Below are positions 31,855 through 52,391 of a stretch of 64,000 bases of DNA, in pieces. Source of the DNA: Solirubrobacter deserti. Lineage in GTDB: Bacteria; Actinomycetota; Thermoleophilia; Solirubrobacterales; Solirubrobacteraceae. A model generated the notes under the pieces. That model was not told the DNA's origin. It was given only the letters and a program-made list of their open reading frames with translations, and did not search any database. The stretch covers positions 620,001 through 684,000 of the forward strand of contig NZ_QPKJ02000004.1 of the NCBI RefSeq assembly GCF_003344625.1, given 5' to 3'. Positions within the stretch are counted from its first letter, which is position 1, and every line of letters begins with the position of its first letter. The translations under genes were made by a program, and so were the position numbers.

Positions 31855-32645
31855 GCTGGTTCGCGATACCGCGCGAGTGGCTCGCGTCCTTCGGCGAGAT
31901 CGTCCGCTTCTGCGGGCGCGTGATGGGCGAGGTCTACGGCCTGAAGGTCTTCCGCTACTTCGGCGAGGCGCTGCGCCAGGCCGGCGTGCTGATCCTCTCC
32001 AGCACGCTCGTCATCTGGGGCCTGACGTTCATCATCGGCCTCCAGTGCGGCATCGAGGCCGCGTACTTCAACCGCGCCACCGGCGCGCCCGCGTATGCCG
32101 GCGTGTTCGCGGCCTGGTGCGACCTGCGCGAGCTGATCCCGTACGCCTTCGGCTACATGATGGCCGCGAAGGTCGGCACCGGCATCGTCGCCGAGCTCGG
32201 CTCCATGCGCATCTCCGACGAGATCGACGCGCTCGAGGTGATGGGCATCTCCTCGATCACGTTCCTGTGCGCGACGCGCCTGCTGGCGAGCTGGCTCGTG
32301 CTCCCGTTCGTCTACCTGGCCGGGATCGGCGCCGGCTTCCTCGCCTCCTACCTGGCGGTGGTCGAGCAGATCGGCGAGGTCTCCAGCGGCGGCTACAGCC
32401 TCATCTTCTGGATGTTCCAGAACCCACCGGACCTCTTATTCAGCCTCATCAAGGCGATGGTCATGGCCACCGCGATCGTGCTCGTCGGCTGTTACTACGG
32501 CTACACGGCGAGCGGCGGGCCGGTGGGCGTCGGCACCGCCACCGCGAAATCGATGGTCCTCAACATCGTGCTGGTCCACCTGATCGGCATGCTCGGCACC
32601 CAGGTCTTCTGGGGTGCGAACCCACGCGCACCGATCGGGGGGTGA
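31851..32645 (+). CDS. yrbEB: MlaE/YrbE-type permease B of the mce operon
   Basis: A 264-residue second MlaE-family permease, probably making a heterodimer with permease A. It shows the same fold, with DLRELIPYAFGYMMAAKVGTG, IVAELGSMRISDEIDALEVM and the C-terminal GCYYGYTASGGPVGVGTATA block, which matches GCYYGY-type ends of the family. The ATG at 31851 overlaps the stop of permease A; the longer upstream frame is a shadow. It is followed after one base by the ATPase gene. Confidence 0.93.
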   Translation: MSWFAIPREWLASFGEIVRFCGRVMGEVYGLKVFRYFGEALRQAGVLILSSTLVIWGLTFIIGLQCGIEAAYFNRATGAPAYAGVFAAWCDLRELIPYAFGYMMAAKVGTGIVAELGSMRISDEIDALEVMGISSITFLCATRLLASWLVLPFVYLAGIGAGFLASYLAVVEQIGEVSSGGYSLIFWMFQNPPDLLFSLIKAMVMATAIVLVGCYYGYTASGGPVGVGTATAKSMVLNIVLVHLIGMLGTQVFWGANPRAPIGG

Positions 32646-32646
32646 C

Positions 32647-33465
32647 ATGACTCAGCCGCGCGAAGACGACGAGTACAAGTGGCACACGGGCAAGAAGCGT
32701 CCCTCCGGGGTGGAGGACGCCGTCGAGTTCGTCGAGGTCCACAAGGCGTTCGGCCGCAACAAGATCCTGCGCGGCCTGAACATGGGCATCCCGAACGACA
32801 AGATCTCGATGATCCTCGGGCCGTCGGGGACCGGGAAGTCGGTCTGCATCAAGCACATGGTCGGGCTGCTGTATCCCGACGAGGGCGACGTGCTGGTGCA
32901 CGGCGAGTCGGTCCCGAACATGCGCGACGAAGAGCTGTTCGAGATGCGCAAGAAGTTCGGCGTGCTGTTCCAGGACGGTGCGCTGTTCGGCTCGATGAAC
33001 CTGTGGGACAACGTCGCGTTCCCGCTGCGCCAGCACACCGACAAGGGCGAGGACGAGATCGAGGACATCGTCAACCGGCGCCTGCGCGAGGTCGGCCTCG
33101 AAGGCTCGAGCGACAAGATGCCCAACGAGCTCTCGGGCGGGATGCGCAAGCGCGCCGGGTTCGCGCGAGCGCTCGTGCTGGACCCGGACATCGTGCTCTT
33201 CGACGAGCCCGACTCCGGCCTGGACCCGGTCCGCACCGCGCTGCTGTGCGAGCTCATCCAGGAGATCCACGAGGAGAACGGCGGCGCCTATGTCGTGATC
33301 ACGCACGACATCATGAGCGCCAAGCGCGTGGCCGAGTACATCGCCGTGCTGTGGAAGGGACGGATCGTCGAGTCCGGCCCGGCGGAGGAGCTCTTCGACT
33401 CCGAGAACCAGTTCGTGCGCCAGTTCCTGTCCGGGGCCTCCCAGGGCCCCCTGGGCATGGAGTAA
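32647..33465 (+). CDS. mkl: Mkl/MlaF-type ABC ATPase
   Basis: A 272-residue nucleotide-binding subunit that powers the MCE/YrbE transporter. It has Walker A GPSGTGKSV, Q-loop VLFQDGALFGS, signature LSGGMRKRAGFARAL, Walker B IVLFDEPDSGLDP and switch His in VITHDIMSA. The signature GGMRKR and the DGALF Q-loop are those of MlaF/MceG. The ATG at 32647 after GGGGGGTGA is chosen over an upstream frame extension. In mycobacteria this ATPase (MceG) is encoded away from the mce operons; here it is inside the operon, as in mla loci. Confidence 0.95.
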   Translation: MTQPREDDEYKWHTGKKRPSGVEDAVEFVEVHKAFGRNKILRGLNMGIPNDKISMILGPSGTGKSVCIKHMVGLLYPDEGDVLVHGESVPNMRDEELFEMRKKFGVLFQDGALFGSMNLWDNVAFPLRQHTDKGEDEIEDIVNRRLREVGLEGSSDKMPNELSGGMRKRAGFARALVLDPDIVLFDEPDSGLDPVRTALLCELIQEIHEENGGAYVVITHDIMSAKRVAEYIAVLWKGRIVESGPAEELFDSENQFVRQFLSGASQGPLGME

Positions 33466-33468
33466 CCG

Positions 33469-34815
33469 TTGGCGTTGGCTCGTGCCGCAGTCGCACTCGG
33501 CGTCGCCGCTCTGGTGGCGCTGGCGGTGTACCTGTTCGTCCTGCGGGCGAGCGGCCACGAGTACACGCTCATCTTCGAGAACGCCGGCCAGCTCGTGGTC
33601 GGCGACAACGTGCAGATCGGCGGCCGCGCCGTCGGCACCATCCGCGACATCCGGCTCACCGACGACAACCAGGCCGCGGTCAAGGTGCTGGTGGAGGAGC
33701 CGTACGCGCCGCTGCGCGAAGGCACCGAGGCGGTGATCCGCCTCACGTCGCTGTCGGGCATCGCGAACCGCTACGTCGCGATCTCGCCCGGCCCGGACGC
33801 GAGCAAGACGCTCGGCGAGGGCGCCACGATCGACACCTCGCAGACGACCACGGCCGTCGATCTCGACGCGCTGTTCAATACGCTCACCCCGGACGCCCGC
33901 AAGGACCTGCAGGGCATCATCGCCGGCTTCCGGACCCAGCTCGACGGCAAGGGCGAGCAGGCGGCCGAGGCCACGAAGTACTTCAACCCGATGCTGTCCA
34001 GCGCGCGCCGGCTCGTCAACGAGGCCACGCGCGACGAGGACGCGCTGACGGACTTCATCGTCTCCTCCTCGCGTACGGTCACGGCGATCGCAGAGAAGCG
34101 CGAAGACCTGAGCGCGCTCGTGGGCAACGCCAACGCGACCACGGGCGCGATCGCGAGCGAGAACGCGGCGCTCCAGCAGGCGCTGTCGCTGCTGCCGACC
34201 ACGCTGCGCCGCGGCAACTCGACGCTCGTGAACCTGCGCTCGACGCTGGATGACCTGGACCCGCTGGTGGCCGAGTCCAAGCCCGCGACCGAGGACCTGG
34301 CGCCCTTCCTGCGCGAGCTGCGCCCGCTGGTGCGCGACTCCAAGCCGACGATCGCGAACCTCTCGACGCTCGTCCGCCGGCCCGGGGCCGACAACGACCT
34401 GGTCGAGGCCACGCAGAAGCTGCCCGGCTTCCAGCGCGTCGCGAGCCCGGCGATGCGCAACTCCACGGGCGCGCTGCAGCGCAGCCAGCCCGTGCTCGAG
34501 TTCATCCGGCCCTACATCCCGGAGCTCGTCGGCTGGTTCCGCGACTTCGGCGTCGGCGCCGCCAACTACGACGCCAACGGCCACTACGCGCGCATCCAGC
34601 CGATCTTCAACGCCTTCCAGGTGCACGACCTGCCGGTCGGCCCGCCGCAGCTGGTGCCGCTGCCCGTCGCGCAGCGCCTGGCCGGCCTGCAGACCGGCAT
34701 GCTGCGCCGCTGCCCCGGCTCCGCGAGCCAGCCCGCGGCCGACGGCTCCGCGCCCTACCGCGACTCCGGCGGCAACCTGGACTGCGACCCGACGCAGGTG
34801 CTGGCGGGCCCATGA
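33469..34815 (+). CDS. MCE family protein 1
   Basis: A 448-residue protein anchored by one N-terminal helix (about 4-25) with an MCE domain (about 30-110, starting YTLIFENAGQLVVGDNVQIG). A long helical region follows, which in this family forms a needle-like tunnel for lipids. The C-terminal part has the motif NYDANGHYARIQ, repeated in similar form in other members of the operon. TTG at 33469 is the start, three bases after the ATPase stop. It overlaps the next gene by ATGA. Confidence 0.9.
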   Translation: MALARAAVALGVAALVALAVYLFVLRASGHEYTLIFENAGQLVVGDNVQIGGRAVGTIRDIRLTDDNQAAVKVLVEEPYAPLREGTEAVIRLTSLSGIANRYVAISPGPDASKTLGEGATIDTSQTTTAVDLDALFNTLTPDARKDLQGIIAGFRTQLDGKGEQAAEATKYFNPMLSSARRLVNEATRDEDALTDFIVSSSRTVTAIAEKREDLSALVGNANATTGAIASENAALQQALSLLPTTLRRGNSTLVNLRSTLDDLDPLVAESKPATEDLAPFLRELRPLVRDSKPTIANLSTLVRRPGADNDLVEATQKLPGFQRVASPAMRNSTGALQRSQPVLEFIRPYIPELVGWFRDFGVGAANYDANGHYARIQPIFNAFQVHDLPVGPPQLVPLPVAQRLAGLQTGMLRRCPGSASQPAADGSAPYRDSGGNLDCDPTQVLAGP

Positions 34816-36479
34816 TCCGGTTCCTCGCAGGCCTCGCGATCGTCGCCGTCATCGCCGTCGGCGCCTTCCTCATCTTCGGGAACCGCGAGGACGACGGCGC
34901 GTACCGCGTGCGCGCGATCTTCGACAACGCCGGCTTCGTGATCCCGGGCGAGGACGTCAAGATCGCGGGCGTCCGCGTCGGCAAGATCGCGTCGATCGAC
35001 GTCACGGAGGACTTCAAGGCCGCGGTCGTGCTCGAGATCACCGAGCCCGGCTACAGGAACTGGAAGCGCGACGCGAGCTGCATCGTGCGCCCGCAGAACC
35101 TGATCGGCGAGCGCTTCGTGGAGTGCAAGCCGACGCAGGTGCGCTCGGCCAACGCCGAGCCGCCGCCCGACCTCGACCTCATCGAGTCCGGCCCAGGTGA
35201 GGGCCAGCGCCTGGTGCCGGTGGAGAACACGTCGCAGTCCGTGGACATCGACCTGATCGGCAACACGATGCGCGAGCCCGAGCGCGAGCGGCTGTCGCTG
35301 ATCCTCAACGAGCTCGGCACCGGCCTCGCCGGCCGCGGCCGCGACCTCAACGACGTGATCCGGCGCGCGAACCCGGCGCTGCGCGAGACCGACCGCGTGC
35401 TGGAGATCCTCGCCCGCCAGAACACGGTGCTCGAGCAGCTCGCGGTCAACTCCGACACGGTGCTCGCCCCGCTCGCGCGCGACCGCCGGCAGGTGGCGAG
35501 CGCGATCCGCAACTCCAGCCGCGTCGCCGAGGCCACGGCCGAGCGGCGCGAGGACCTGGCGGCCGACATCGAGACGCTGCCGGAGTTCCTGGACGAGTTC
35601 GACCCGACGATGGAGCGCCTCGGCTCGCTCGCGGATGAGTCCACGCCGCTGCTGACCGACCTGGGCGCCCGCGCGGACGACATCAACAACGTGGTGCGCC
35701 GGCTCGGCCCGTTCTCCGAAGCCGCGATCCCGGCGATCGACTCGCTCGGCGAGGCGGCGCAGACCGGCACGCCCGCCCTCACCGAGGCGCGCCCCGTGAT
35801 CGCCGACCTGCGCTCGCTGGCCAACGACATCCGCCCCGTCGGCACGAACCTGCGCGGCGTGCTCGAGTCCTTCCGGGACACGGACGGCATCCAGCGCCTG
35901 ATGGACTACATCTTCTTCCAGGTCGCCGCGATCAACGGCTACGACGCGACGGGGCACTACCTGCGCGCCGGGCTGCTCGTGAACCAGTGCACGACCTACG
36001 CCGTCCGGCCGGTCGCGGGCTGCACGGCGAACTACCCGCCGGCCGCCGGCGCGAGCGCGGCCACGGCCAGGGCGTCCAGCGCCGTCGACGGCGTCGGCGA
36101 GGACCCGGTGCTGCGTGCGACCGCGATCGCGATCGCGCGCGCCCTCGGCCAGCAGGTCGAGCAGGAGAAGGCGAAGATCGACCGGACGCTGACGGCGAAG
36201 AAGCCGGGCGGGAAGGCCGAGGCGCCCGCCGGCGCGGCGCCGCGCATCCGTGGCGCGGCCCCGACGGCGACGGCGACCGCCACCGCGCCGCCGTCCGCTT
36301 CGCCCGTGGAGCAGGCTCCGGCGCCCGCGCCGTCCTCCGCGCCCACGACGGCGCCGCCCGCCGCCGAGACGCCCGCGCCCACCGCCGCGCCGCCCACCCC
36401 GACCGCGCCCGCCCCGACGGCCACACCCGACCCGGGCGAAGGGCTGCTCGACTTCCTGTTCGGGGAGGAGGGCGGATGA
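34812..36479 (+). CDS. MCE family protein 2 with Pro/Ala-rich tail
   Basis: A 555-residue MCE protein with an N-terminal helix (about 2-20), an MCE domain (about 28-115: RAIFDNAGFVIPGEDVKIAG), a helical region and the GYDATGHYLRAG motif near residue 376. The last 90 residues are a low-complexity Pro/Ala/Thr-rich tail (many TAPPxA-like repeats) that looks disordered and may cross the cell-wall layer. Only this member has such a tail. It overlaps genes on both sides by four bases. Confidence 0.9.
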   Translation: MIRFLAGLAIVAVIAVGAFLIFGNREDDGAYRVRAIFDNAGFVIPGEDVKIAGVRVGKIASIDVTEDFKAAVVLEITEPGYRNWKRDASCIVRPQNLIGERFVECKPTQVRSANAEPPPDLDLIESGPGEGQRLVPVENTSQSVDIDLIGNTMREPERERLSLILNELGTGLAGRGRDLNDVIRRANPALRETDRVLEILARQNTVLEQLAVNSDTVLAPLARDRRQVASAIRNSSRVAEATAERREDLAADIETLPEFLDEFDPTMERLGSLADESTPLLTDLGARADDINNVVRRLGPFSEAAIPAIDSLGEAAQTGTPALTEARPVIADLRSLANDIRPVGTNLRGVLESFRDTDGIQRLMDYIFFQVAAINGYDATGHYLRAGLLVNQCTTYAVRPVAGCTANYPPAAGASAATARASSAVDGVGEDPVLRATAIAIARALGQQVEQEKAKIDRTLTAKKPGGKAEAPAGAAPRIRGAAPTATATATAPPSASPVEQAPAPAPSSAPTTAPPAAETPAPTAAPPTPTAPAPTATPDPGEGLLDFLFGEEGG

Positions 36480-37891
36480 GATCCTCGCGAGGAGGGATCG
36501 CCGGGAACCCGGTGTTGATCGGCGCCGCCACGGTGCTGGTGATCCTCGTCGCCGTCTTCCTGTCCTACAACGCCAACAAGGGCCTGCCGTTCGTCCCGAC
36601 CTACCGGGTCGACGCGGAGCTGCCCAGCGCGGCGCAGCTGACGGTCGGCAACGACGTCAAGGTGGGCGGCACGCGCATCGGCGCGGTCACCGCCATCAAG
36701 CCGCGCCAGCTCGACAACGGCCAGGTCATCGCGGTGGTGACGATGACGCTCGACAAGGACGCCGGCCCGCTGCCCGAGGACTCCACGCTGCTCGTGCGCC
36801 CGCGCTCGGCGCTCGGCCTCAAGTACGTGGAGATCACGCGCGGGTCCGCGCGCGCGAGCTTCGACGACGGGGACACGATCCCGCTCGCTCGCGCCGAGAC
36901 GCCCGTCGAGCTCGACGAGTTCTTGAACATGTTCGACGAGGACACGCGCGCCGCCTCGCAGGCCAACCTCGAGGGCTTCGGGACCGCGTTCGCGGGCCGC
37001 GGCGAGTCGATCAACACCGCGATCGGCGCGTTCCGGCCGCTGCTGCGCGACGTCGTGCCCGTGATGCAGAACCTCGCCGACCCGCGCACGAACCTCGAGG
37101 GCTTCGTCGTGGAGGCGGGCGAGACGGCGGCGATCGTCGCGCCCGCCGCGGAGACGCAGGCGACGCTGTTCCGCAACCTGAACACGACGATGGCGGCGCT
37201 CAACGAGGTCGCGCGGCCCTACATCCAGGACTCGATCTCGGGCGGCAAGCCCGCGCTGGACGCCGGCATCGAGTCGCTGCCGAACCAGCGCCCGTTCCTG
37301 GCCAACACCGAGGGCCTCATGCGCGAGCTGGGGCCCGGCGTGCGCGCGCTGCGCACGGCGGCGCCCGCGCTGTCGGACGCGCTCGGCGCCGGGATCGACG
37401 TGCTGCCGCGCACGCCGGCGCTCAACCGGCGCCTGGAGTCGCTGCTGGAGGAGGTGCGGACGTTCGCCAACGACCCGCTCGTCCCGCGCGGCATCCAGTC
37501 CACCAACGCGCTCGTGAAATCCGCCGACCCGACGCTCGCCTTCCTTGCGCCCGCCCAGACGGTCTGCAACTACATCACGCTCTTCTTCCGCAACATCTCG
37601 TCGCTGCTGAGCGAGGGCGACCGCAACGGCACCTGGCAGCGGTTCAGCATCGTCGCGATGCCGCAGGGCCCGAACAACGAGGGCGGCCCGTCCTCCGGCC
37701 CGGCCAACGGCCCGACGGTCGACAACCACCTGCACACCAACCCGTACCCGAACACCGCGTCGCCCGGCCAGCCCCGTGAGTGCGAGTCCGGCAACGAGCC
37801 CTACCTCGCGGGCCGCACGGTCACCGGCAACGTCCCCGGCACGCAGCAGGCGCGCACCGAGGGCTACGCCCGCCAGGGGGACGCGCGCTGA
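36476..37891 (+). CDS. MCE family protein 3
   Basis: A 471-residue MCE protein with an N-terminal helix (about 10-30, VLIGAATVLVILVAVFLSY), an MCE domain (VDAELPSAAQLTVGNDVKVG) and a helical tunnel region with repeated LRxxxP-like segments. The C-terminus ends in a Gly/Asn/Pro-rich loop with two cysteines. The ATG at 36476 overlaps the preceding stop; the long upstream frame is a shadow. The stop shares one base with the next ATG. Confidence 0.88.
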   Translation: MRSSRGGIAGNPVLIGAATVLVILVAVFLSYNANKGLPFVPTYRVDAELPSAAQLTVGNDVKVGGTRIGAVTAIKPRQLDNGQVIAVVTMTLDKDAGPLPEDSTLLVRPRSALGLKYVEITRGSARASFDDGDTIPLARAETPVELDEFLNMFDEDTRAASQANLEGFGTAFAGRGESINTAIGAFRPLLRDVVPVMQNLADPRTNLEGFVVEAGETAAIVAPAAETQATLFRNLNTTMAALNEVARPYIQDSISGGKPALDAGIESLPNQRPFLANTEGLMRELGPGVRALRTAAPALSDALGAGIDVLPRTPALNRRLESLLEEVRTFANDPLVPRGIQSTNALVKSADPTLAFLAPAQTVCNYITLFFRNISSLLSEGDRNGTWQRFSIVAMPQGPNNEGGPSSGPANGPTVDNHLHTNPYPNTASPGQPRECESGNEPYLAGRTVTGNVPGTQQARTEGYARQGDAR

Positions 37892-39450
37892 TGGCCCGCA
37901 CGCGTCGCCACGGCCCGCGCCGCTCGAACGCGTTCATCGGCCTGCTGGCCGTGGCCGTGATCGCGGTGATCATGTACTTCGGCTTCACCAAGGACATCCC
38001 GCTGAAGTCCGGCTTCGAGCTGCGCGCGCAGTTCCAGTCGGCGAACTCGATCCGGCCCAACTCGCCCGTGCGCATCGCGGGCGTGGAGGTCGGCAAGGTC
38101 AAGGCGGTCGAGCCGGTCGAGGGCTCCAACGACGCGATGCTCGTCATGGAGCTCAAGGACAGCGCGCTGCCGCTGCACGAGAACGCGACGGCCAAGATCC
38201 GCCCGCGCATCTTCCTCGAGGGCAACTTCTTCGTGGACCTCAAGCCGGGCACGCCGGGCTCCCCGCAGCTGGAGTCGGGGGACATGATCGCGGTCACGCA
38301 GACGGCCTCGCCGGTGCAGCTGGACGAGATCCTCACGTCGCTGCAGGCTGACTCGCGCGAGGACCTGACGAAGCTGCTCAAGGGCCTGAACACGACGCTC
38401 ACGTCGGAGCCGACGGAGGAGCAGGACGCGGACTCGCACGAGCTCGCGCAGGGCGAGACGGCGGCCGAGTCCTTCAACGACGCGCTGGACGACATCCCGG
38501 CCGCGGAGCGCTCCACGGCCCAGGTGCTCGAGGCGCTGATGGGCACCCAGCCGACGCGGGACATCAACCGCCTCATCCGCGGCACCGCCCGCACGGCGGA
38601 GGAGCTGAGCCGCTACGAGCAGTCGCTGCAGGACCTGATCACCAACCTGAACACGACCACCGCCGCGCTCGCGGGCGAGTCCGCGAACCTGCGCGCCTCC
38701 ATCCGCGAGCTGCCGCCGACGCTGGCCGCGGCCAACAGCGCGTTCGACGCGTTGAACGCGGCGTTCCCGCCCACGCGCGCGTTCGCGACCGAGATCCGTC
38801 CGGGCGTGCGCGAGACGCCGGCGACGATCGAGGCCGCGTTCCCGTGGATCGAGCAGACCCGGGCGCTCGTGCAGCCCGAGGAGCTGGGCGGCCTGGCCGC
38901 GGAGCTCTCGCCGGCCACCGTCGACCTGGCGCGGCTGATCGACCGGGCCACCGAGCTGCTCCCGCAGGTCGACCTGCTGTCCAGGTGCGTGCGCGACGTC
39001 GTGCTGCCCGCCGGGGACCTGGTCGTCCAGGACGAGTTCACCAACGGCGAGGAGAACTACAAGGAGTTCTTCTACGCGCTGGTCGGCATCGCGGGCGAGG
39101 GCCAGAACTTCGACGGCAACGGCATGTACGTGCGCTTCCAGACCGGCGGCGGCTCGCAGACGCTGTCGCTGGGGCCGAACTCGACGAGCCTCGGCGAGCT
39201 GTTCGGCAACTTCATCGAGGCGCCGCTCGGCAACCGGCCGGCGATGCCGCCCAAGAAGCCGACCTACCGCGACGACGTGCCGTGCCACACGCAGACGCTG
39301 CCGAACGTCAACGGCCCGCTGGCGGGCAAGACGGCGCCGGGCGGCGGGCCGACGGCGGCGGCCGCCAGGACCAAGCAGGACAAGCTGCGCAAGGCCACCG
39401 AGCTGAAGGTCATCCGCCGCAAGCTCAACCCGTTCGGAGCGGGCAAGTGA
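37891..39450 (+). CDS. MCE family protein 4
   Basis: A 519-residue MCE protein: Arg-rich N-terminus, membrane helix (about 14-31), MCE domain (LRAQFQSANSIRPNSPVRIA), then a helical region containing an acidic insert EPTEEQDADSHELAQGETA at about 175-190 that the neighbours lack. The C-terminal NFDGNGMYVRFQTGG resembles the GHYxR motif of members 1 and 2. The ATG at 37891 overlaps the stop of member 3 (TGATG). It ends in a Lys/Arg-rich tail. Confidence 0.88.
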   Translation: MARTRRHGPRRSNAFIGLLAVAVIAVIMYFGFTKDIPLKSGFELRAQFQSANSIRPNSPVRIAGVEVGKVKAVEPVEGSNDAMLVMELKDSALPLHENATAKIRPRIFLEGNFFVDLKPGTPGSPQLESGDMIAVTQTASPVQLDEILTSLQADSREDLTKLLKGLNTTLTSEPTEEQDADSHELAQGETAAESFNDALDDIPAAERSTAQVLEALMGTQPTRDINRLIRGTARTAEELSRYEQSLQDLITNLNTTTAALAGESANLRASIRELPPTLAAANSAFDALNAAFPPTRAFATEIRPGVRETPATIEAAFPWIEQTRALVQPEELGGLAAELSPATVDLARLIDRATELLPQVDLLSRCVRDVVLPAGDLVVQDEFTNGEENYKEFFYALVGIAGEGQNFDGNGMYVRFQTGGGSQTLSLGPNSTSLGELFGNFIEAPLGNRPAMPPKKPTYRDDVPCHTQTLPNVNGPLAGKTAPGGGPTAAAARTKQDKLRKATELKVIRRKLNPFGAGK

Positions 39451-40814
39451 CGGCGATCCGCAAGCACCTGCCGGACTTCCTGGCGATCCTCGGCCTGCTC
39501 GTCGTCGCGTTCGTGGTCTCGGTCTACATCCTCGACAAGCAGCGGCTCGCGCTGCCGCCGGGCGTGCCGGTCCTGGGCAAGGACTACTTCGAGATCGAGG
39601 CCGAGATGACGACGGCGCAGGCGGTCACGCCGGGCCAGGGCCAGACGGTCAACGTCGCAGGCGTCGAGGTGGGCGAGATCTCGTCGGTCAAGCTGCGCGA
39701 CGGCAAGGCCATCATCGGCATGAAGATCCAGCGCAAGCACGACCGGATCTACCGCGACGCGTCGATCCTGCTGCGGCCGAAGACGGGCCTGAAGGACATG
39801 GTGGCCGAGCTCACGCCGGGCACCCCCGAGGCCGGCCGCCTGCAGGAGGGCGGCGTGATCCCGATCTCGCAGACGCTGCCGGACGTCAACCTCGACGAGA
39901 TCCTCGCGGCGCTGGACGCGGACACCCGCGACTACCTGCTGCTGCTGCTCAACGACGGCGCGGAGGGCCTCGGGTCCGAGCGCAAGGGCCAGCAGCTCGC
40001 GCAGGCGATCCGCCGGCTGGAGCCGACCGCCAAGTACGCGCGCGAGATCAACGAGGGCCTGGCCGAACGGCGCGACCACCTGCGGCGCGTCGTGCACAAC
40101 TTCTCGCTGCTGACCGAGGAGCTCGGCCAGCGCGACACCCAGCTCGCCAATTTCGTGCAGAACTCCAACGCCGTGTTCGACACGCTGGCCCAGCAGGACG
40201 CGTCGCTGCAGGCCATCCTCCAGCGCCTGCCGGGCACGCTGCAGACGACGCAGACGACGCTCGGCAAGGTCGAGACGCTCGCCGACGTGCTCGGGCCGAC
40301 GCTCGAGGACCTGCGTCCGGCGGCGCGCGCGCTCGGGCCTTCACTGCGCAAGACGCGCCCGTTCCTGCGCGAGTCGACGCCGGTCATCCGCGACGAGATC
40401 CGCCCGTTCACGCGCGCCGCGCTGCCGACGGTGCAGGAGCTGCGCCCGGCGATGCGCGACCTGGCGGAGGCGACGCCCGACCTCACGGCCTCGGTGGGCG
40501 TCCTCAACCAGCTGCTCAACGCGGCCGCCTACAACCCGCCCGGCCAGGCGGAGGAGGGCATGCTGTTCTGGCAGGCGTGGGTCAACCACGCCGGCAACTC
40601 GCTGTTCTCCACGGCCGACTCGCACGGCCCGATCCGGCGCGGCCTGTTCCTGCTCTCCTGCAACTCCGCGCAGCTGCTGGACGCGGTCGCGCAGGCCAAC
40701 CCGCAGCTCGGCACGCTGGTCGAGCTGCTCAACGCGCCCGCGCAGCAGACGATCTGCCCGACCTCGACCCAGGGGCCCGCCGCGGGCGGCGGCGCTCCCG
40801 CGACGGGAGGCTGA
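39447..40814 (+). CDS. MCE family protein 5
   Basis: A 455-residue MCE protein: N-terminal helix (about 9-28, FLAILGLLVVAFVVSVYIL), MCE domain (IEAEMTTAQAVTPGQGQTVN, VAGVEVGEI) and a long helical region. It has a GTG start at 39447 in a GTGA overlap with member 4. No lipobox is present, unlike MceE of mycobacteria. The C-terminus is Gly/Ala/Thr-rich. The order within the operon suggests one copy of each of six different MCE subunits. Confidence 0.88.
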   Translation: MTAIRKHLPDFLAILGLLVVAFVVSVYILDKQRLALPPGVPVLGKDYFEIEAEMTTAQAVTPGQGQTVNVAGVEVGEISSVKLRDGKAIIGMKIQRKHDRIYRDASILLRPKTGLKDMVAELTPGTPEAGRLQEGGVIPISQTLPDVNLDEILAALDADTRDYLLLLLNDGAEGLGSERKGQQLAQAIRRLEPTAKYAREINEGLAERRDHLRRVVHNFSLLTEELGQRDTQLANFVQNSNAVFDTLAQQDASLQAILQRLPGTLQTTQTTLGKVETLADVLGPTLEDLRPAARALGPSLRKTRPFLRESTPVIRDEIRPFTRAALPTVQELRPAMRDLAEATPDLTASVGVLNQLLNAAAYNPPGQAEEGMLFWQAWVNHAGNSLFSTADSHGPIRRGLFLLSCNSAQLLDAVAQANPQLGTLVELLNAPAQQTICPTSTQGPAAGGGAPATGG

Positions 40815-40819
40815 CCGCG

Positions 40820-42448
40820 GTGGTCAAGGACGTTCCTTCCTTCGGCAAGATCGCGGCGATGGTGCTGTTCGCGCTGACGTGCTTTGGGCTGCTGCTGTTT
40901 CTGTGGCTCGCGTTCGGCGGGCCGGTGCCCCTGAAGCCGAAGGGCTACCGCTTCCACACGCAGTTCGCCGAGGTCGGCCAGCTCGCCACCGAGGCCGACG
41001 TGCGCATCAGCGGCGTGCCCGTCGGCAAGGTCAAGAAAATCACGCCCAACAAGCGCACGGGCGCCTCCGACGTCGAGATCCAGCTGCAGTCGCGCTACGC
41101 GCCGCTGCCGTCGGACGCGCGCGCGATCCTGCGCCAGAAGACGCTGCTGGGCGAGACCTACGTGGAGCTCACGCCGGGGCGCAATGACGCGGAGCCGATC
41201 GCCGAGGGCGGGGCGCTGGCGTCCACGCAGGTGTCCGAGACCGTCGAGCTGGACGAGATCCTGCGTTCCTTCGATCCGGAGACGCGCGCGAACTTCCAGG
41301 ATTGGATGCAAACTCAAGCTCAGGCCATCGGCGATGGCCGCGGGCGCGACTTGAATGACGCGTTGGGAAACCTGGCGCCGTTCGCCGACGACACGGCGAC
41401 GATCGTCGACGTGCTCAACCGCCAGGAGGAGGCGCTCTCCCAGCTGGTGGCCAACACGGGCGTCGTGTTCGGCGCGCTCAACGAGCGCGACACGCAGCTG
41501 CGGTCGCTGATCGAGAACTCCAACAGCGTGTTCGCGGCGACGGCCGCGCGCGACGAGGACCTGCAGGCCGCGTTCCGCGCGCTGCCGACGTTCGAGGACG
41601 AGTCGCGGCAGACGTTCGAGCGCCTGGACGAGTTCCAGCGCGAGACCGACCCGCTCGTCACGCAGCTGCGGCCCGCGGCGCGCGAGCTGTCGCCGACGCT
41701 GCGCGACCTGCAGGACGTCGCGCCGGACCTCAAGAACCTGCTCGAGCAGCTGGACCCGCTGATCGAGGCCTCCAAGGAGGGCTTCCCGGCCGCCGAGCAG
41801 GTGCTCGTGGACACGCGGCCCACGCTCGGCCAGCTCGTGCCCGCGACCGCTCAGCTCACGCCCGCGGTCGACTTCATCGGGCTCTACAAGCGCGAGCTGA
41901 CGTCGTTCTTCGCCAACGCGGGCTCGGCCACGCAGGCGCGCGACGCGCGCACCGGCCTGCACTACCTGCGCACCAGCAACCCGCTGAACCCGGAGAACCT
42001 GGCGGTGTATCCGCGCCGGCTGCCGACCAACCGGCCGAACCCGTACACGTTGCCGGGGCACTTCGACCAGATCAACTCCGGGCTGGCGGTGTACGAGGAC
42101 CGCCAGTGCTCGTCGGGGACGCAGATCCCGTCCCTGACCAACCTGCCGATCGACCTGGTCAACGACGTGATCGCGCCCGTGCCGTCGCCGGTCCCGACCG
42201 TCCAGCCGGTGATCCCGGGGCTGCCGCTGCCGCCCATCAACCTGCCGCCGATCCCGCAGATCCCGCTCACGCCCGAGCAGGCGGCGACGCTGATCCCGAC
42301 CGAGCTGCTCGACCGCATCCAGCAGTTCGCGTTCGGCGGGGTGGGCAACGCCGGCCTGGTGGCGCCGCCGTGCCGCAAGCAGGGGCCGTTCGAGTTCGGC
42401 GGCGAGCGCACGCAGTACCCGCACGTGAACGCGCGCGACGACGGGTAG
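40820..42448 (+). CDS. MCE family protein 6
   Basis: A 542-residue MCE protein: helix (about 9-32), MCE domain (FHTQFAEVGQLATEADVRIS), helical region, and a Pro-rich segment near 455-495 (VPSPVPTVQPVIPGLPLPPI). A Cys in the helix (LTCFG) lacks a proper lipobox. The GTG at 40820 is five bases after the preceding stop. It is the last MCE gene; the RND gene begins four bases later, so that gene is likely part of the same transcript. Confidence 0.88.
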   Translation: MVKDVPSFGKIAAMVLFALTCFGLLLFLWLAFGGPVPLKPKGYRFHTQFAEVGQLATEADVRISGVPVGKVKKITPNKRTGASDVEIQLQSRYAPLPSDARAILRQKTLLGETYVELTPGRNDAEPIAEGGALASTQVSETVELDEILRSFDPETRANFQDWMQTQAQAIGDGRGRDLNDALGNLAPFADDTATIVDVLNRQEEALSQLVANTGVVFGALNERDTQLRSLIENSNSVFAATAARDEDLQAAFRALPTFEDESRQTFERLDEFQRETDPLVTQLRPAARELSPTLRDLQDVAPDLKNLLEQLDPLIEASKEGFPAAEQVLVDTRPTLGQLVPATAQLTPAVDFIGLYKRELTSFFANAGSATQARDARTGLHYLRTSNPLNPENLAVYPRRLPTNRPNPYTLPGHFDQINSGLAVYEDRQCSSGTQIPSLTNLPIDLVNDVIAPVPSPVPTVQPVIPGLPLPPINLPPIPQIPLTPEQAATLIPTELLDRIQQFAFGGVGNAGLVAPPCRKQGPFEFGGERTQYPHVNARDDG

Positions 42449-42452
42449 CTCG

Positions 42453-44936
42453 ATGCGCGCGATCGTCGTTGCTCTCGTGCTCGTCGTTGCGGGTGCGGCG
42501 CTGGCCACGCGGCTGGATGTGAGCGCGTCGACGGGCTCGCTGGTCGGCGGCGGCAACGAGTCCGGGCAGGCGACCGAGAAGGCGCGCGAGCGCTTCGGCG
42601 ACGACGCCGTGTACGTGCTCGTGCGCGGCGATCTGCCGCGGATGGTGCTCACGTCCGACCTCAACCGGCTGCTGGGGCTCGAGGGCTGTCTGTCCGGGAA
42701 CCTGCCCGCGGGCGCGACGCCGCCGGGCGGGGCGGGCTCGCCATGCGACAAGATCGCGGCCGCCGATCGCGTGCACGTCGTGTACGGGCCGGGGACGTTC
42801 ATCAACTCGTCGGTCAACGAGCTCACCGCGCAGCTGCAGGGGCGCACGCGCGAGCGGGCGGCGCAGGCCGACCGGGCGCGGGAGGCGGCTTCGAAGCTGG
42901 CGCGAGCCGACGGGAAGTCCGCAGCCGAGGCGCGGCGGCTCGGCCAGGAGGCGGAGAAGCTCGTCTACGCGCAGTTCGCGTCCGAGTTGCTGGCGATGAA
43001 CGCCAAGTACGGGCTCAACCTGACGGGCGCGCCGAAGCTCAACGACCCCGACTTCGTCTACCAGCTGGTATTCGACCCCTCGCGCGGGGAGCGCACGCCG
43101 AAAGCGCGCTTCGCGTACCTGTTCCCTTCGCCGGAGTCGGCGCTGATCTCGGTGCGGCTCAACGCCGGCCTGAGCGAGGAGGAGCGCGCGGAGGCCGTGG
43201 CGCTGGTGCGGGACGCGGTCGCCATGCCGGAGTGGAAGCTGGAGAGCGGCGGGAACTACGTGGTGACGGGCGTGCCCGTGCTCGCGGACGAGCTCACGGG
43301 CGTACTCGCGGGCTCGACACTGCGGCTGTTGCTGGTGGGTGTGGCGGTGATGGCGCTGGTGCTCGCGTTGCTGTTCCGCGCGCGGCTGCGGCTGCTGCCG
43401 CTGATGGTCGCGCTGGGGACGGTCTCGATCGTGTTCGGCGCCCTCGCGCTGCTCGGACTGCCGCTGACGATGGCGTCGATCGCGGTGCTGCCGGTCCTGC
43501 TGGGGTTGGCGGTCGACTACGCGATCCAGTTCCAGGCGGGGAACTCGCGGCGGGTGATCAGCACCGCCGCCCTGGCGACCGCGGTCGGCTTCCTGATCCT
43601 GCTGCTCTCGCCCGTGCCGATGGTGCGCGGGTTCGGGGCGCTGCTCGTCGTCGGCGTCGGTGTGGCGCTGGCGTTGACGTTCACGGCGGGCGCCGCGGTG
43701 CTGCGGCGGCCACCGGCGCGGGGCGGGTTCGCGCGGGCGCTGCGCGGCGCCGGCGAGCTCGTCAACGTGGTCCGGCTCCCACGGCTGCGCGTGGAGCGGC
43801 CGTTGCGGTGGGTCGTGGCCAACGCGCGCGCGGTGCTGGTCGCGGCGGTGCTGCTGGCCGTCGGCGGGTGGGTGCTGGACTCGCGGATCGCGATCGAGTC
43901 CGAGCTGCAGAAGCTCGTGCCGCAGTCGCTCGCGGCCGTCCAGGACCTGGATGCGCTGCAGCGTTCGACGGGCACGGCGGGGGAGATCGACGTCCTCGTA
44001 GAGGGCGAGGACCTCACCGATCCCGCCGTGGTGCGCTGGATGCGCGACTACCAGAACGAGATCCTGCTGCGCAACGGCTACAGCGCCGAGCAGGGCTGTG
44101 CCGGCGCCGCGCTGTGCCCGGCGCTGTCGCTCCCGGACCTGTTCCGGACGCCGGAGCTGTCGGCGACGCGCGAGCAGGTGCGCGCGTTGCTGGACGCCGT
44201 GCCGCCGTACCTGTCGCAGGCGGCGATCTCGGCCGACCGCAAGACGGCGGTGCTGGCCTTCGGGCTGCGGCTGCAGTCGCTGGAGGGGCAGCGCGAGGTG
44301 ATCGAGGGGATGCGCTCACGGCTCGACCCGCCCGAAGGTGTGCGCGCGACGCTGGCCGGGCTGCCGGTGCTGGCGGCGGACGCCAACCACGCGATGAGCG
44401 ATCCGCTGCGGAGGCTGCTGCTCGTCGTCGCGGGGTTGCTGGCGGTCGCTTTGGCGCTCTTCGCGGTGTACCGCTCGTGGGCCCGGGCGTGGGTGCCGCT
44501 CGTGCCGATCGCGCTGGCCACGGGGTGGTCGGCGCTGGTGCTGTTCGTGGCCGGCGTGCCGCTGAATCCGCTGTCGGCGGCGTTGAGCGCACTCGTGATC
44601 GCGATCTCGACGGAGTTCTCGGTGCTGCTCTCGGCCCGGTACGTGGATGAGCGGCGCGCGGGCTTGGACCCGGCGGAGGCGCTGCGGCGGACCTACCGGG
44701 TGACGGGCGCGGCGGTGCTCGCGTCGGGCGTGACCGCGATCGCGGGCTTTGCCGTGCTGATCGCCTCGGATGTGGCCATGCTGCGGGACTTCGGGCTCGT
44801 GACGGTGCTCAACCTCGCGGTGTCGCTGGTGGGCGTGCTGGCGGTGCTCCCGGCGGTGCTGGTGCTGGCCGAGCGCGGCGAGCTGCTGCCGCGCCGCCGC
44901 GTGCGCCGCCGCCGGCGCCGGGCCGTCGCGGCGTGA
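42453..44936 (+). CDS. MmpL/HpnN-like RND superfamily transporter
   Basis: An 827-residue polytopic protein of the RND superfamily, close in plan to hopanoid transporter HpnN and MmpL proteins that move lipids. It has two halves, each with one helix, a large extracytoplasmic loop and five helices: the first loop spans about 20-285, the second about 475-640. The sterol-sensing-like core VLPVLLGLAVDYAIQFQAGN and the second-half LSALVIAISTEFSVLLSARY include the acidic residues expected for proton coupling. Its place directly after six MCE genes suggests work on the same lipid cargo. It overlaps the next gene as GTGA. Confidence 0.88.
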   Translation: MRAIVVALVLVVAGAALATRLDVSASTGSLVGGGNESGQATEKARERFGDDAVYVLVRGDLPRMVLTSDLNRLLGLEGCLSGNLPAGATPPGGAGSPCDKIAAADRVHVVYGPGTFINSSVNELTAQLQGRTRERAAQADRAREAASKLARADGKSAAEARRLGQEAEKLVYAQFASELLAMNAKYGLNLTGAPKLNDPDFVYQLVFDPSRGERTPKARFAYLFPSPESALISVRLNAGLSEEERAEAVALVRDAVAMPEWKLESGGNYVVTGVPVLADELTGVLAGSTLRLLLVGVAVMALVLALLFRARLRLLPLMVALGTVSIVFGALALLGLPLTMASIAVLPVLLGLAVDYAIQFQAGNSRRVISTAALATAVGFLILLLSPVPMVRGFGALLVVGVGVALALTFTAGAAVLRRPPARGGFARALRGAGELVNVVRLPRLRVERPLRWVVANARAVLVAAVLLAVGGWVLDSRIAIESELQKLVPQSLAAVQDLDALQRSTGTAGEIDVLVEGEDLTDPAVVRWMRDYQNEILLRNGYSAEQGCAGAALCPALSLPDLFRTPELSATREQVRALLDAVPPYLSQAAISADRKTAVLAFGLRLQSLEGQREVIEGMRSRLDPPEGVRATLAGLPVLAADANHAMSDPLRRLLLVVAGLLAVALALFAVYRSWARAWVPLVPIALATGWSALVLFVAGVPLNPLSAALSALVIAISTEFSVLLSARYVDERRAGLDPAEALRRTYRVTGAAVLASGVTAIAGFAVLIASDVAMLRDFGLVTVLNLAVSLVGVLAVLPAVLVLAERGELLPRRRVRRRRRRAVAA

Positions 44937-49076: not shown

Positions 49077-50324
49077 CTATGCGCCCGGCCCGGGCAGCGG
49101 GCCGTGCTCGGATTCGAATTGCTGCTTGACGTTTCGGAATACGTCGAGCGCCCGATCCAGGACGGCCCGGTCATGGGTGGCCATCACGCTCGTCCGCAGC
49201 AGCGCGCCGCCCGGCTGGACAGCGGGATGGATGGCGACGTTGACGTACACGCCGGCGTCGTAGAGCGCGCGCCAGAGCAGCACGGCCTTCCAGTCGTCCT
49301 CGACCAGCACGGGGACGATCGGCGTGACCGCCGGCTCGCCCCGCACGACCCGGAAGCCCAGCGCGTCAAGGCCGCTTGACAGGTAGTTGCCGTTGTCCAG
49401 CACGCGCTGCAGCAGCTCGGGCCCCTCGTCGGAGCGCAGGATGCGCAGCGCGGCCAGCGCGGCGCCCACGGCGGCCGGCACGTTGGAGGCCGTGAACAGG
49501 AACGCGCGGCTGGAGATGCGCAGGAAGTCGATCACCTCGTGCGAGCCGGCGATGAAGCCGCCGCAGGACGCGAGGGACTTGCTGAACGTGCCCATGCGCA
49601 GGTCCACGTCGGCTTCCACCCCGAGCAGCTCGGACGCGCCCGCCCCGCGCGCGCCGAGCACGCCCGCGCCGTGCGCCTCGTCGACCATCAGCCGCGCGCC
49701 GTAGGCCTTGCACAGCTCGACGATCCGCGGCAGCGGCGCGATGTCGCCCTCCATCGAGAAGACGCCGTCGACCACCACCAGGACGCCGCCGCCGTCGTCC
49801 ACGGCCCGCGCGAGCATCTTCTCCAGCCGGTCCAGGCGGTTGTGCTTGAACGGGCGCAGCTTGGCCTTGGAGATCAGGCAGCCGTCGAGGATCGAGGCGT
49901 GGTCGGCGGAGTCGACGATGACGGTGTCGCCGGGGCTGAGGAGCGTCCCGAGCGTGCCGACGTTGGCCTGGTGGCCCGTGGAGAAGACGATCGCCTCCTC
50001 GGTGCCCATCCACTCCGCGAGCTCGGCCTCGAGCTCCAGGTGCAGGTCGAGCGTGCCGTTGAGCAGGCGGCTGCCCGTCAGGCCGGTGCCGTACTTGTCG
50101 AGCGCGTCGCGGGCGGCCTGCTGCACGCGCGGGTCCGCGGTCAGCCCGAGGTAGTTGTTGGAGCCGAGCATGATCCGCTCGGCGCCCTCCATCTCCACGA
50201 CCGGCCCGGCGGGGCCTTCGAGGCGGCGGAAGTACGGCAGCAGATCGGCTTCGCGTGCGGCGCGCAGCTGCTCGGCGCGCTCGTGTCCTCGGACCTTCGC
50301 GAAGACGTCGATGGCTGTCGGCAT
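49077..50324 (-). CDS. serine palmitoyltransferase-like alpha-oxoamine synthase
   Basis: A 415-residue PLP enzyme that condenses an acyl thioester with an amino acid. PLP contacts are visible: His142 (SADHAS), Asp215 and His218 (MVDEAHGAG), and Lys249 (GTFSKSLAS). The family also includes BioF and Kbl. Features that favour serine palmitoyltransferase are the TGSRLLNGTLDLHLELE block, SSRAFLFTASNVPA after the lysine, and the C-terminal VYVNVAIHPAVQPGGALLRT, which matches the GLYVN...P...P.G..LLR pattern of bacterial SPT. Gene context with an N-acyltransferase and a fatty-acid hydroxylase supports a sphingoid-base role. No biotin genes are nearby. Substrate is inferred. Confidence 0.7.
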   Translation of the reverse strand: MPTAIDVFAKVRGHERAEQLRAAREADLLPYFRRLEGPAGPVVEMEGAERIMLGSNNYLGLTADPRVQQAARDALDKYGTGLTGSRLLNGTLDLHLELEAELAEWMGTEEAIVFSTGHQANVGTLGTLLSPGDTVIVDSADHASILDGCLISKAKLRPFKHNRLDRLEKMLARAVDDGGGVLVVVDGVFSMEGDIAPLPRIVELCKAYGARLMVDEAHGAGVLGARGAGASELLGVEADVDLRMGTFSKSLASCGGFIAGSHEVIDFLRISSRAFLFTASNVPAAVGAALAALRILRSDEGPELLQRVLDNGNYLSSGLDALGFRVVRGEPAVTPIVPVLVEDDWKAVLLWRALYDAGVYVNVAIHPAVQPGGALLRTSVMATHDRAVLDRALDVFRNVKQQFESEHGPLPGPGA

Positions 50325-50342
50325 TGCTAGGGTCCGCCTCCA

Positions 50343-51458
50343 GTGAGCGTGGTCGTCCGTCCGGTCTCGTCCTGGCGAGACCGCCGGGAATTCGTCGAAC
50401 TCCCGTACCGGCTGCACTCTACCTCTGCGGTTTGGGTGCCCCCGCTCCGTCTCGAGCGCCACCTGTTCCTGATGCGCTCGCAGAACCCGCTGTTCTCGCA
50501 CGGCGACGCCCAGCTGTTCCTCGCCTGGCGCGACGGCCGCGTGGTGGGCCGGATCAGCGCGCAGTACGACGAGCACTACGACGAGCCCGGGACCGGCATG
50601 TTCGGCTTCCTCGAGCTCGAGGACGCGCCGGACATCGTGCCCGGGTTGCTGGAGGCGGCCGCGTCGTGGCTGCGCGCGCAGGGGCGCTCGCGGATGGTCG
50701 GGCCGATGGACTTCACGATGAACGACGAGGTCGGCGTGATGCTCGAGGGCTTCGAGCGGATGCCGTTCGTGCGCCAGCCGTGGCACCCGCCGTACTACGC
50801 GGCGCGCTGCGAGGAGGCCGGGCTCGAGAAGGCCGTCGACCTGCTCATGTACGAGCTGGTGATCTCGGACCGGTCGAAGATCCTGCCGGTCGTCTTCAAG
50901 CTGGCCGAGCGGGTGCAGCCGCGGCACGGCATCACGATCCGGCGCATGTCACGGCGCTCGCTGCGGCGGGACCTGGACCGCTTCGCCGAGGTCTACAACG
51001 AGGCCTGGAGCGAGAACTGGGGCTTCGTGCCGTATGGCAAGCGCGACCTGGACGTGTACGCACAGGAGATGCAGCTCGTCTTCGACCGCAACTGGTACAT
51101 GGTCGCCGAGACGGAGTCGGGAGAGACCGCCGCGGTCGCGATCACGGTTCCCGACATCAACCAGGTGCTGGTGAAGATGCAGGGGCGGGTGTTGCCGTTC
51201 GGCTGGCTGCACTACCTGCGCAAGAAGTGGATCATCGACCGGGTTCGAGTCGGGTTCCTCGGCGTCAAGCACGCCTACCAGCACACGGGCGTGGCGGCGG
51301 CGCTGTACGTCGAGCACTTCGACACCGCCTCGCGCACGCCGCAGAAGTGGGGCGAGATGGGCTGGATCCTGGAGTCCAACAAGAACATGAACCGCGCCAT
51401 GGAGGCGATGGGCGGCCGCGTCGTGCGGCGTTTTCGGGTCTACGAACGGGTTTTGTAA
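50343..51458 (+). CDS. GNAT-fold N-acyltransferase, YghO/bacterial ceramide-synthase-like
   Basis: A 371-residue protein of the group annotated as YghO-like or GNAT N-acyltransferases. It has the recurrent N-terminal block RREFVELPYRLHSTSAVWVP, the FLAWRDGRVVGRISAQYD strand pair, and the C-terminal part NEAWSENWGFVPYG, VPDINQVLVKMQGRVLPFGW and MGWILESNKNMNRAMEAMGG, which carries the acyl-CoA-binding GNAT core. The Caulobacter ceramide synthase bCerS belongs to the GNAT superfamily and, as I recall, resembles this group. GTG at 50343 is 18 bases from the divergent SPT-like start. N-acylation of a sphingoid base is a plausible but unproven role. Confidence 0.65.
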   Translation: MSVVVRPVSSWRDRREFVELPYRLHSTSAVWVPPLRLERHLFLMRSQNPLFSHGDAQLFLAWRDGRVVGRISAQYDEHYDEPGTGMFGFLELEDAPDIVPGLLEAAASWLRAQGRSRMVGPMDFTMNDEVGVMLEGFERMPFVRQPWHPPYYAARCEEAGLEKAVDLLMYELVISDRSKILPVVFKLAERVQPRHGITIRRMSRRSLRRDLDRFAEVYNEAWSENWGFVPYGKRDLDVYAQEMQLVFDRNWYMVAETESGETAAVAITVPDINQVLVKMQGRVLPFGWLHYLRKKWIIDRVRVGFLGVKHAYQHTGVAAALYVEHFDTASRTPQKWGEMGWILESNKNMNRAMEAMGGRVVRRFRVYERVL

Positions 51459-51467
51459 GGTTTCTGC

Positions 51468-52082
51468 ATGGACCGTACGGACTTCCTGAAGGCGTCCCCG
51501 CCGATGTTCAAGTCGGGTCTGCTGGACAAGTTCACCCGGGTTCATCACTTCGTGCCGGTCGTGATCTTCGCGCCCGCGATCGCGGTGCTGTTCGCGTTCG
51601 GCGTGGACCGGATGGGCGTGTTCGAGGCGTTCGCGTGGGCGGTTGGCGGCTACTTCTTCTGGACGCTCGCCGAGTACTGGATTCACCGCGTGATCTTCCA
51701 CTTCGAGCCCGAGGAGGGCATCGGCGCGCGGCTGCACTGGATGGTCCACGGCGTCCACCACGACCATCCGAACGACCCGCTCCGGCTCGTGATGCCGCCC
51801 GGCGCCTCCGTGCCGCTGGCGCTGATCTTCTACGCGCTGTTCTGGCTCGTGCTGGGCGCGGACCGCGCGTTCGCCTTCGGGGCCGGCTTCCTGGGCGGTT
51901 ATCTCGCTTACGACATGATCCACTACGCCTTGCACCACCACACCCCGCGCACCCGGCTGGGAAAGTGGCTGCGAGAGCTGCACATGCGCCACCACTTCCA
52001 GGACGACGAGCGCGGCTTCGGCATCAGCGCCCCGTACTGGGATCGCGTGTTCGGCACCATGCACGTCCGCCGCGGGCGGTAG
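51468..52082 (+). CDS. fatty acid hydroxylase superfamily protein (FA2H/Scs7-like)
   Basis: A 204-residue membrane di-iron hydroxylase. The histidine clusters are complete: His73 and His78 (HRVIFHF), His90/94/97/98/100 (HWMVHGVHHDH), His152/156-158 and His172/175/176 (HMRHHF). Four hydrophobic segments surround them. The order and the wording HWMVHGVHHDHPNDPLRLVMPP are close to yeast Scs7 and human FA2H, the 2-hydroxylases of sphingolipid N-acyl chains. The ATG at 51468 is nine bases after the N-acyltransferase stop, so both are likely co-transcribed. Confidence 0.85.
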   Translation: MDRTDFLKASPPMFKSGLLDKFTRVHHFVPVVIFAPAIAVLFAFGVDRMGVFEAFAWAVGGYFFWTLAEYWIHRVIFHFEPEEGIGARLHWMVHGVHHDHPNDPLRLVMPPGASVPLALIFYALFWLVLGADRAFAFGAGFLGGYLAYDMIHYALHHHTPRTRLGKWLRELHMRHHFQDDERGFGISAPYWDRVFGTMHVRRGR

Positions 52083-52094
52083 TGTCTGTGCTTC

Positions 52095-52391
52095 GTGGTT
52101 GACGAAGACGGAGAAGTCACGGAGGGCGAGGTCGTCGACGGCCTGCCCGTCGTCACCGAGCGCGCCGACGTGCTCGAAGAGTCACCGGCCGGCGGCGCGC
52201 TGTCGGTCCCGGGCGTCCAGGCCGCGGCCCTCGCCGCCACCGGCTTCGTCGCCGGCGCCTGCACCGTCGCGGTCGTCAAGCGCCACCGCACCAAGAAGGC
52301 CGCCAAGAAGCGCAAGAAGGCCGGCCCCCTGGGCGAGATCGTCGGCTCGAACTCGTTCTTGATCGACGTCCACCTGCTCAAGCGCAGCTAG
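52095..52391 (+). CDS. small membrane protein with Lys-rich segment
   Basis: A 98-residue protein that I do not recognise. An acidic N-terminal third is followed by one hydrophobic segment (VQAAALAATGFVAGACTVAVV, about 42-62) and then KRHRTKKAAKKRKKAG, a polybasic stretch that would sit on the cytoplasmic face. The end (IVGSNSFLIDVHLLKRS) is neutral. The GTG at 52095 is 12 bases after the hydroxylase stop, so it may belong to the same operon. The 21-bp repeat region follows. Confidence 0.6.
   Translation: MVDEDGEVTEGEVVDGLPVVTERADVLEESPAGGALSVPGVQAAALAATGFVAGACTVAVVKRHRTKKAAKKRKKAGPLGEIVGSNSFLIDVHLLKRS

Follow-up and report, generated by a model that had tools for sequence, protein, structure and literature searches.

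A 64,000-nucleotide stretch of the Solirubrobacter deserti genome (contig NZ_QPKJ02000004.1, positions 620,001 to 684,000; hereafter the window, with 72% G+C) carries four neighbouring genes for a serine palmitoyltransferase (SPT)-type synthase, an N-acyltransferase of the YghO family, a fatty-acyl hydroxylase resembling Scs7/FA2H and a small membrane protein (Table 1). An earlier note on this DNA had read the first three as a ceramide pathway, and the four open frames that it called are all present where it placed them. The 7.55-Mb assembly is split into 428 contigs and is 96.73% complete and 5.04% contaminated, but the gene order is not an assembly error, because a second genome of the same genus (G471) shares the row of Mce operon, MMPL gene, spt, GNAT gene, hydroxylase gene and small gene (L257). 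As had been noted, spt and the GNAT gene start 18 bp apart, but the joint expression expected from that spacing does not follow: the genes are divergent, which rules out a single operon. A scan for sigma-70 consensus sites from 50200 to 50500, which spans the gap, found none.

Table 1. Features of the window (positions count from its first nucleotide; + and −, strand)
Feature	Position	Strand	Remarks
Mce-type lipid transporter operon, actinobacterial type	31048..42448	+	MlaE permease at 31048-31854; five MlaD/Mce proteins detected; upstream of spt
MMPL/RND-type membrane protein	42453..44936	+	follows Mce operon; family in 10/14 order loci
spt, SPT	49077..50324	−	ATG at 50324; 415 aa; tree, structure matches, active-site residues
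Gap between spt and GNAT start codons	50325..50342		18 bp, divergent
cerS/bCerS-type N-acyltransferase, YghO family, tandem GNAT	50343..51458	+	GTG at 50343; 371 aa
Scs7/FA2H-like fatty-acyl 2-hydroxylase lacking a cytochrome b5 domain	51468..52082	+	204 aa; Pfam, Scs7 match
Order-specific small one-helix protein	52095..52391	+	GTG at 52095; 98 aa

The SPT label given to the synthase earlier fits. Its ten best matches among solved structures are all SPTs (294–330 bits), compared with 273 bits for the best BioF/Kbl-type structure. In a 30-row tree rooted on controls, with ALAS outside the set, 25 SPT-side rows (the window's protein, its relatives, proteins from Rubrobacter, Streptomyces, Sphingomonas, Escherichia coli and Pseudomonas, and GNAT-adjacent SPTs of other phyla) split from the controls E. 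coli BioF, E. coli Kbl and the genome's own paralogues L032–L034 with support of 100/98. The backbone inside the SPT side lacks resolution; among the paralogues, L033 clusters with E. coli Kbl (support 100), with L032 and L034 on the BioF side. The 30 rows were picked from a 59-row quick tree showing the same picture, in which a putative SPT on a long branch (L217) and another own paralogue on a very long branch (L035) fell outside; both were omitted from the smaller tree. The structure matches and the tree, in which the synthase does not group with Kbl or BioF, rule out either identity. H142, D215, H218 and the pyridoxal 5'-phosphate (PLP) lysine K249 are conserved and correspond to H159, D231, H234 and K265 of the Sphingomonas SPT, and the equivalent of its R390 is conserved as well; these five Sphingomonas residues we take to have catalytic roles.

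For the N-acyltransferase, Pfam returned GNAT matches below threshold only. Its predicted structure (30 alignment rows; predicted local distance difference test (pLDDT) score 92.3, predicted template-modelling (pTM) score 0.90) has its best fold matches among tandem-GNAT enzymes, for example 2wpw and 7q3a, at E values of about 1e-14 to 1e-13 and 12–14% identity. The protein is 31–37% identical to counterparts in Rubrobacter, Streptomyces, Sphingomonas, E. coli and Pseudomonas clusters, with full-length matches at 32–36% to the members of SPT/CerR clusters in the last four genera, and a tblastn search matched 44 plasmid records, 43 of them over at least 80% of its length. In Rubrobacter radiotolerans, Streptomyces, Sphingomonas, E. 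coli (where it is YghO) and Pseudomonas veronii, the counterpart lies near an SPT-type synthase gene and an epimerase/dehydrogenase-type gene; the Pseudomonas reductase gene is annotated as hypothetical and received that label here by similarity. The cited part of PMC9386255 pairs yghO with Caulobacter CC_1154, a gene on which dihydroceramide synthesis depends, and likewise the epimerase with CC_1164. A 51-row tree of the family places the window's protein in a Solirubrobacterales-type clade (100/99), with weak deep branches (34/8), no proven non-ceramide member and no Caulobacter sequence. Among the matches listed, its closest named relatives are metagenome-assembled genomes (MAGs) of Solirubrobacteraceae, Solirubrobacterales and Thermoleophilaceae, and Conexibacter strains. 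The YghO/GNAT-type label proposed earlier stands, and the family shared with YghO is consistent with a place inside the CerS clade.

The hydroxylase scores 73.1 bits against the Pfam FA_hydroxylase model (cut-off 31) and 111.7 bits against yeast Scs7, over residues 6–197 of its 204. All 12 histidines of the four motifs are identical in the two proteins, which bears out the earlier description of an FA2H/Scs7-like enzyme with full histidine clusters; its putative substrate is the N-acyl chain of a ceramide. The 98-residue protein encoded next gave no match in a Pfam search. It has an acidic N terminus, one hydrophobic stretch (residues 43–62, the single predicted helix), then 12 lysine or arginine residues, in agreement with the small polybasic membrane protein foreseen, and a conserved C-terminal motif of the SRSFLVDVHLL type. 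Fifteen homologues share that motif and have 9–15 lysine or arginine residues after the predicted helix. The small gene adjoins spt or the GNAT gene, and in three genomes (G165, G438 and G459) it lies beside spt with the GNAT gene at least 137 kb away. This adjacency may be plain synteny, because other neighbours also stay in place in G165 and G438.

The four genes are inherited together across the order. In a set of 101 order genomes, 72 are of good quality (completeness of 90% or more and contamination of 5% or less; its 5.04% puts the window's genome outside the 72), and order membership of unlisted genomes without a match was read from a listing sorted with nearer kin first. SPT (E ≤ 1e-100) occurs in 95 of the 101 and in 72/72 good-quality genomes, the GNAT protein (E ≤ 1e-50) in 98 and 72/72, and the hydroxylase (E ≤ 1e-20) in 88 and 66/72. 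A head-to-head arrangement of spt and the GNAT gene at less than 300 bp (3–216 bp between matched ends) occurs in 71 of the 95 genomes that carry SPT, a pairing that exceeds chance. The remaining 24 comprise 9 head-to-head pairs at 2.8–4.5 kb, 5 pairs widely separated on a shared contig, 9 pairs split between contigs and 1 genome without a GNAT match. The cultured Conexibacter arvalis DSM 23288 carries the head-to-head pair (L146). In a class sample of 149 genomes (33 from the order and 116 others), SPT (E ≤ 1e-90) was found in 33/33 order genomes and in 5/116 others at 47–51% identity, the hydroxylase (E ≤ 1e-12) in 29/33 versus 2/116 and the small protein (E ≤ 1e-5) in 32/33 versus 0/116; the Fisher P values for the last two, 3e-24 and 9e-32, ignore common descent.

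Elsewhere the same family is arranged differently. A scan of named genomes yielded at least 583 confirmed GNAT loci, the best 80 of which were then searched with models; several are short contigs, such as L149 (3.8 kb). Among the 14 Solirubrobacterales-type loci (L138–L151, three of them titled only Actinomycetota or Actinobacteria), 11 contain SPT, always head to head, and 0/11 have CerR beside it. Of 66 other loci, 39 contain SPT, co-directional with the GNAT gene in 38 and head to head in 1, and CerR accompanies it at more than 170 bits in 30/39, or in 31/39 if any match is counted; the difference between 0/11 and 30/39 has a Fisher P value of 4.5e-6, which ignores descent. The co-directional pairs suggest that separation of the two genes does not hold as a rule in other phyla, even though bacterial cerS is said in the cited portion of PMC11324152 to be always in a different operon from spt. 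Two actinobacterial loci, L140 and L141, have a CerS-type gene without SPT near large, weakly matching acyl-ligase-like genes and a protein with a short-chain dehydrogenase/reductase (SDR) motif; these genes perhaps make another N-acyl product.

Measured against a complete SPT, CerS and CerR set, two of the three enzymes are present at the locus, which does not affect the proposed likeness to that pathway as far as N-acylation. A model of five cluster CerRs gave 50 matches in the genome, the best at 124.7 bits (125.7 rescored); on it, the 30 CerRs of SPT loci, selected as exceeding 170 bits, score 176–314 bits. With a 22-row model, the genome's best score was 134.7 bits (135.5 rescored), compared with 222.6–411.4 bits for 13 cluster CerRs outside the model. 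A 46-row tree united 24 cluster CerRs in one clade (97/98) that excludes 16 class-best candidates and the genome's six best, and the latter were rejected on this ground. Scores on the CerR model do not track the pathway, as SPT-negative families of the class reach 175 bits, above the 125 bits of the window's genome. When 480 called genes from the window and 27 order-type loci were screened for a simple Rossmann motif, no SDR-like motif turned up near spt; those seen were confined to L140, L141 and positions 9952–10713 of the window (about 38 kb from spt), and other matches were proteins of unrelated size or family. No CerR lies in the neighbourhood, as the earlier note had it, and a CerR proper encoded elsewhere is not supported either: by both models and the tree, no CerR-clade protein was found in the genome (96.7% complete), reductases of the BT_0972 type not having been searched for. 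Subject to that completeness, the genome most likely lacks CerR. BT_0972 of Bacteroides is a non-CerR reductase for 3-ketosphinganine, according to the cited part of PMC9278070.

Taken together, the SPT tree, the YghO family membership, the Scs7 match and the order-wide pairing support the three-gene ceramide reading. We consider it likely that the committed steps of a bacterial sphingolipid pathway are encoded at this locus; the pathway would either be independent of CerR or leave the 3-keto group unreduced, and would be helped by the small protein. The activities, substrates and product, and the part of the small protein, are those we infer from the sequences. SPT would form 3-ketosphinganine by condensing serine and a fatty acyl thioester; the donor would be acyl-CoA or a housekeeping acyl carrier protein (ACP), because no AcpR/AasR-like gene was called in the window. 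The tandem-GNAT CerS-type enzyme would then N-acylate 3-ketosphinganine. This fits the step order proposed for Caulobacter, in which the 3-keto base is N-acylated; there, cerR deletion leaves an oxidised ceramide (cited part of PMC11087976). The Scs7-like di-metal membrane hydroxylase would place a 2-hydroxyl on the N-acyl chain, and the 3-keto group would be reduced by a non-CerR ketoreductase encoded elsewhere or stay as it is. The probable role of the small protein is to help keep SPT or CerS bound to the membrane. The best reading for the order as a whole is that it would make 2-hydroxylated ceramide-type lipids, with a ketoreductase other than CerR or with none.

Several observations weigh against this interpretation. 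The step of ketone reduction has no assigned gene. The synthase stays below the curated NCBI cut-offs, its best NCBIfam scores being 417.1 bits for one SPT model (cut-off 640), 396 for another (500) and 360 for glycine C-acetyltransferase (460); the SPT models were built for named lineages, namely the Cytophaga–Flavobacterium–Bacteroides (CFB) group and the beta- and alphaproteobacteria. R378 of the Sphingomonas paucimobilis type is replaced by Ile365, and its equivalent is also missing from the other nine non-Sphingomonas rows of the alignment. The hydroxylase gene is linked to spt and the GNAT gene in few order genomes and missing from 6/72 good-quality ones, and it occurs in two class members from outside the order that have no SPT among the matches listed. 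In 27 of the 66 other GNAT loci, many of them short contigs, the examined stretch holds no SPT, so the GNAT family need not act on sphingoid bases everywhere. Finally, 64/81 order genomes have a CerR match of some kind (E ≤ 1e-35), almost always under 181 bits, and four of the 81 (G432, G456, G459 and G478) carry CerR-like proteins of 203–223 bits that are not placed in the tree. None of the four is beside SPT in the stretches inspected, and three sit within frames of 821–833 residues; CerR may be present in these few genomes. The domains in those long frames, away from SPT (L259:9818-12283, L260:2256-4757 and L261:9538-12021), are possible fusion reductases.

These high-scoring proteins and the 50 matches speak for the alternative that the usual pathway is complete, with the part of CerR taken by an extended SDR that is either highly diverged or moonlighting and belongs to the roughly 50 CerR/epimerase-like proteins. 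An extended SDR group conserved across the order (L075 with G121, G100, G272, G165 and G347; 100/100 in the tree) also speaks for it. We nevertheless regard this as rather unlikely, given that the six best candidates fall outside the CerR clade, that families without SPT outscore them and that the examined stretches of 11 SPT-bearing relatives contain no CerR.

It is unlikely, too, that the hydroxylase has nothing to do with sphingolipids and instead modifies the acyl chains of glycerolipids or sterol- or carotenoid-like substrates. Its gene is unlinked in most order genomes and lost from some, and an inspection of 12 neighbourhoods found no conserved partner for the unlinked gene; yet among solved proteins it is closest to the ceramide hydroxylase Scs7, with every motif histidine kept, and within the class it is found together with SPT. 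In other phyla, too, hydroxylase-like genes occur close to the GNAT gene, at one locus each of Spartobacteria (191 bits) and Bdellovibrionales (154 bits) and at four alphaproteobacterial loci, where they are 176–233 bp upstream and score 44–50 bits. These six loci (L217 and L215, L174, L166, L191 and L214) point to a repeated pairing of hydroxylation with ceramide synthesis.

Alpha-oxoamine synthases vary in the amino acid they use, and sequence alone does not fix the choice. A ceramide analogue made from alanine, glycine or cysteate, giving 1-deoxy-, 1-deoxymethyl- or sulfono-type lipids, would agree with the match of the synthase to a solved cysteate-C-fatty acyltransferase (224 bits) and with the treatment of the bacterial genes as a '(1-deoxy)Cer' pathway in the cited part of PMC11334938. 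The higher scores of SPT structures and the position of the protein in the SPT group make this improbable. Least credible is an acylated amino-ketone secondary metabolite in place of a membrane lipid, which we think very improbable: YghO-family genes do stand beside acyl-ligase and SDR genes without SPT at L140 and L141, but presence in all 72 good-quality order genomes points to a core function, and the neighbourhood holds a lipid transporter operon rather than secondary-metabolite genes.

That operon, of the Mce type, and the MMPL/RND-type gene that follows it could conceivably serve sphingolipid transport. On the other side of the locus, a tandem repeat of 21 bp (52432–52629; 9.4 copies, 98% matches) separates the small gene from an HhH-GPD-type gene, and an NMT1/THI5-type ATP-binding cassette (ABC) transporter with binding protein, permease and ATPase (53596–56092) is kept downstream in about 10 of the 14 order loci.

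Bacterial ceramide genes as such are known, including in an actinobacterium: Stankeviciute et al. (2022) reportedly described SPT-bCerS-CerR, along with ceramides, in a Streptomyces. The Solirubrobacterales, actinobacteria common in soil, are to our knowledge not generally regarded as sphingolipid makers. The statement in the earlier note that sphingolipids are known mainly from Bacteroidota and some Proteobacteria is out of date, as Spt-like genes from 38 phyla are reported for Black Sea MAGs in the cited part of PMC11334938. In an open-licence library searched for sphingolipids of Solirubrobacter and Thermoleophilia, we found no report of the genes as a core trait of the order, of a lack of CerR, of a hydroxylase inherited with them or of the small protein; the papers touching these lipids are, in the parts consulted, community or omics surveys. 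A bolder and tentative proposal is that sphingolipids are a core trait of Solirubrobacterales made without canonical CerR, through a new ketoreductase or with a 3-keto (alpha-hydroxy)ceramide as end product, and that the small protein is the membrane partner of SPT, a possible bacterial analogue, in kind and not by descent, of the small subunits that regulate SPT in eukaryotes. Were ceramides such a trait, the order would be a large monoderm source of soil sphingolipids, these lipids would not depend on an outer membrane, and the lack of the reductase would allow a direct test of the order and completion of the bacterial pathway. Cultured carriers of the gene pair exist in C. arvalis DSM 23288.

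Among known systems, Caulobacter (spt, cerS/bcerS CC_1154, cerR CC_1164 and acpR/aasR) shares the SPT and N-acyltransferase homologues and likewise has spt and cerS in separate transcription units. Unlike Caulobacter, the window's genome has no CerR-clade reductase and the window no called AcpR/AasR-like gene, and the locus adds the Scs7-like hydroxylase and the order-specific small membrane protein; Solirubrobacterales are also monoderm, which Caulobacter is not. The Rubrobacter (L070, L101–L103) and Streptomyces (L071) clusters belong to the same phylum and also have SPT and GNAT genes as neighbours, the Rubrobacter SPTs being 43–44% and the GNAT proteins of both genera 34–36% identical to those of the window. 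In these clusters, however, SPT, GNAT and CerR genes are co-directional and follow one another in that order, whereas the window has the first two head to head and the third missing. The hydroxylase matches the catalytic part of the yeast ceramide 2-hydroxylase Scs7/FA2H over its full length, with the 12 motif histidines, but at 204 residues it is too short for the cytochrome b5 domain that yeast Scs7 carries. For the reductase, the nearest parallel in kind is BT_0972 of Bacteroides thetaiotaomicron, which, in the cited part of PMC9278070, is a short-chain dehydrogenase distinct from CerR; an enzyme of this type could supply the step that the window's pathway lacks.

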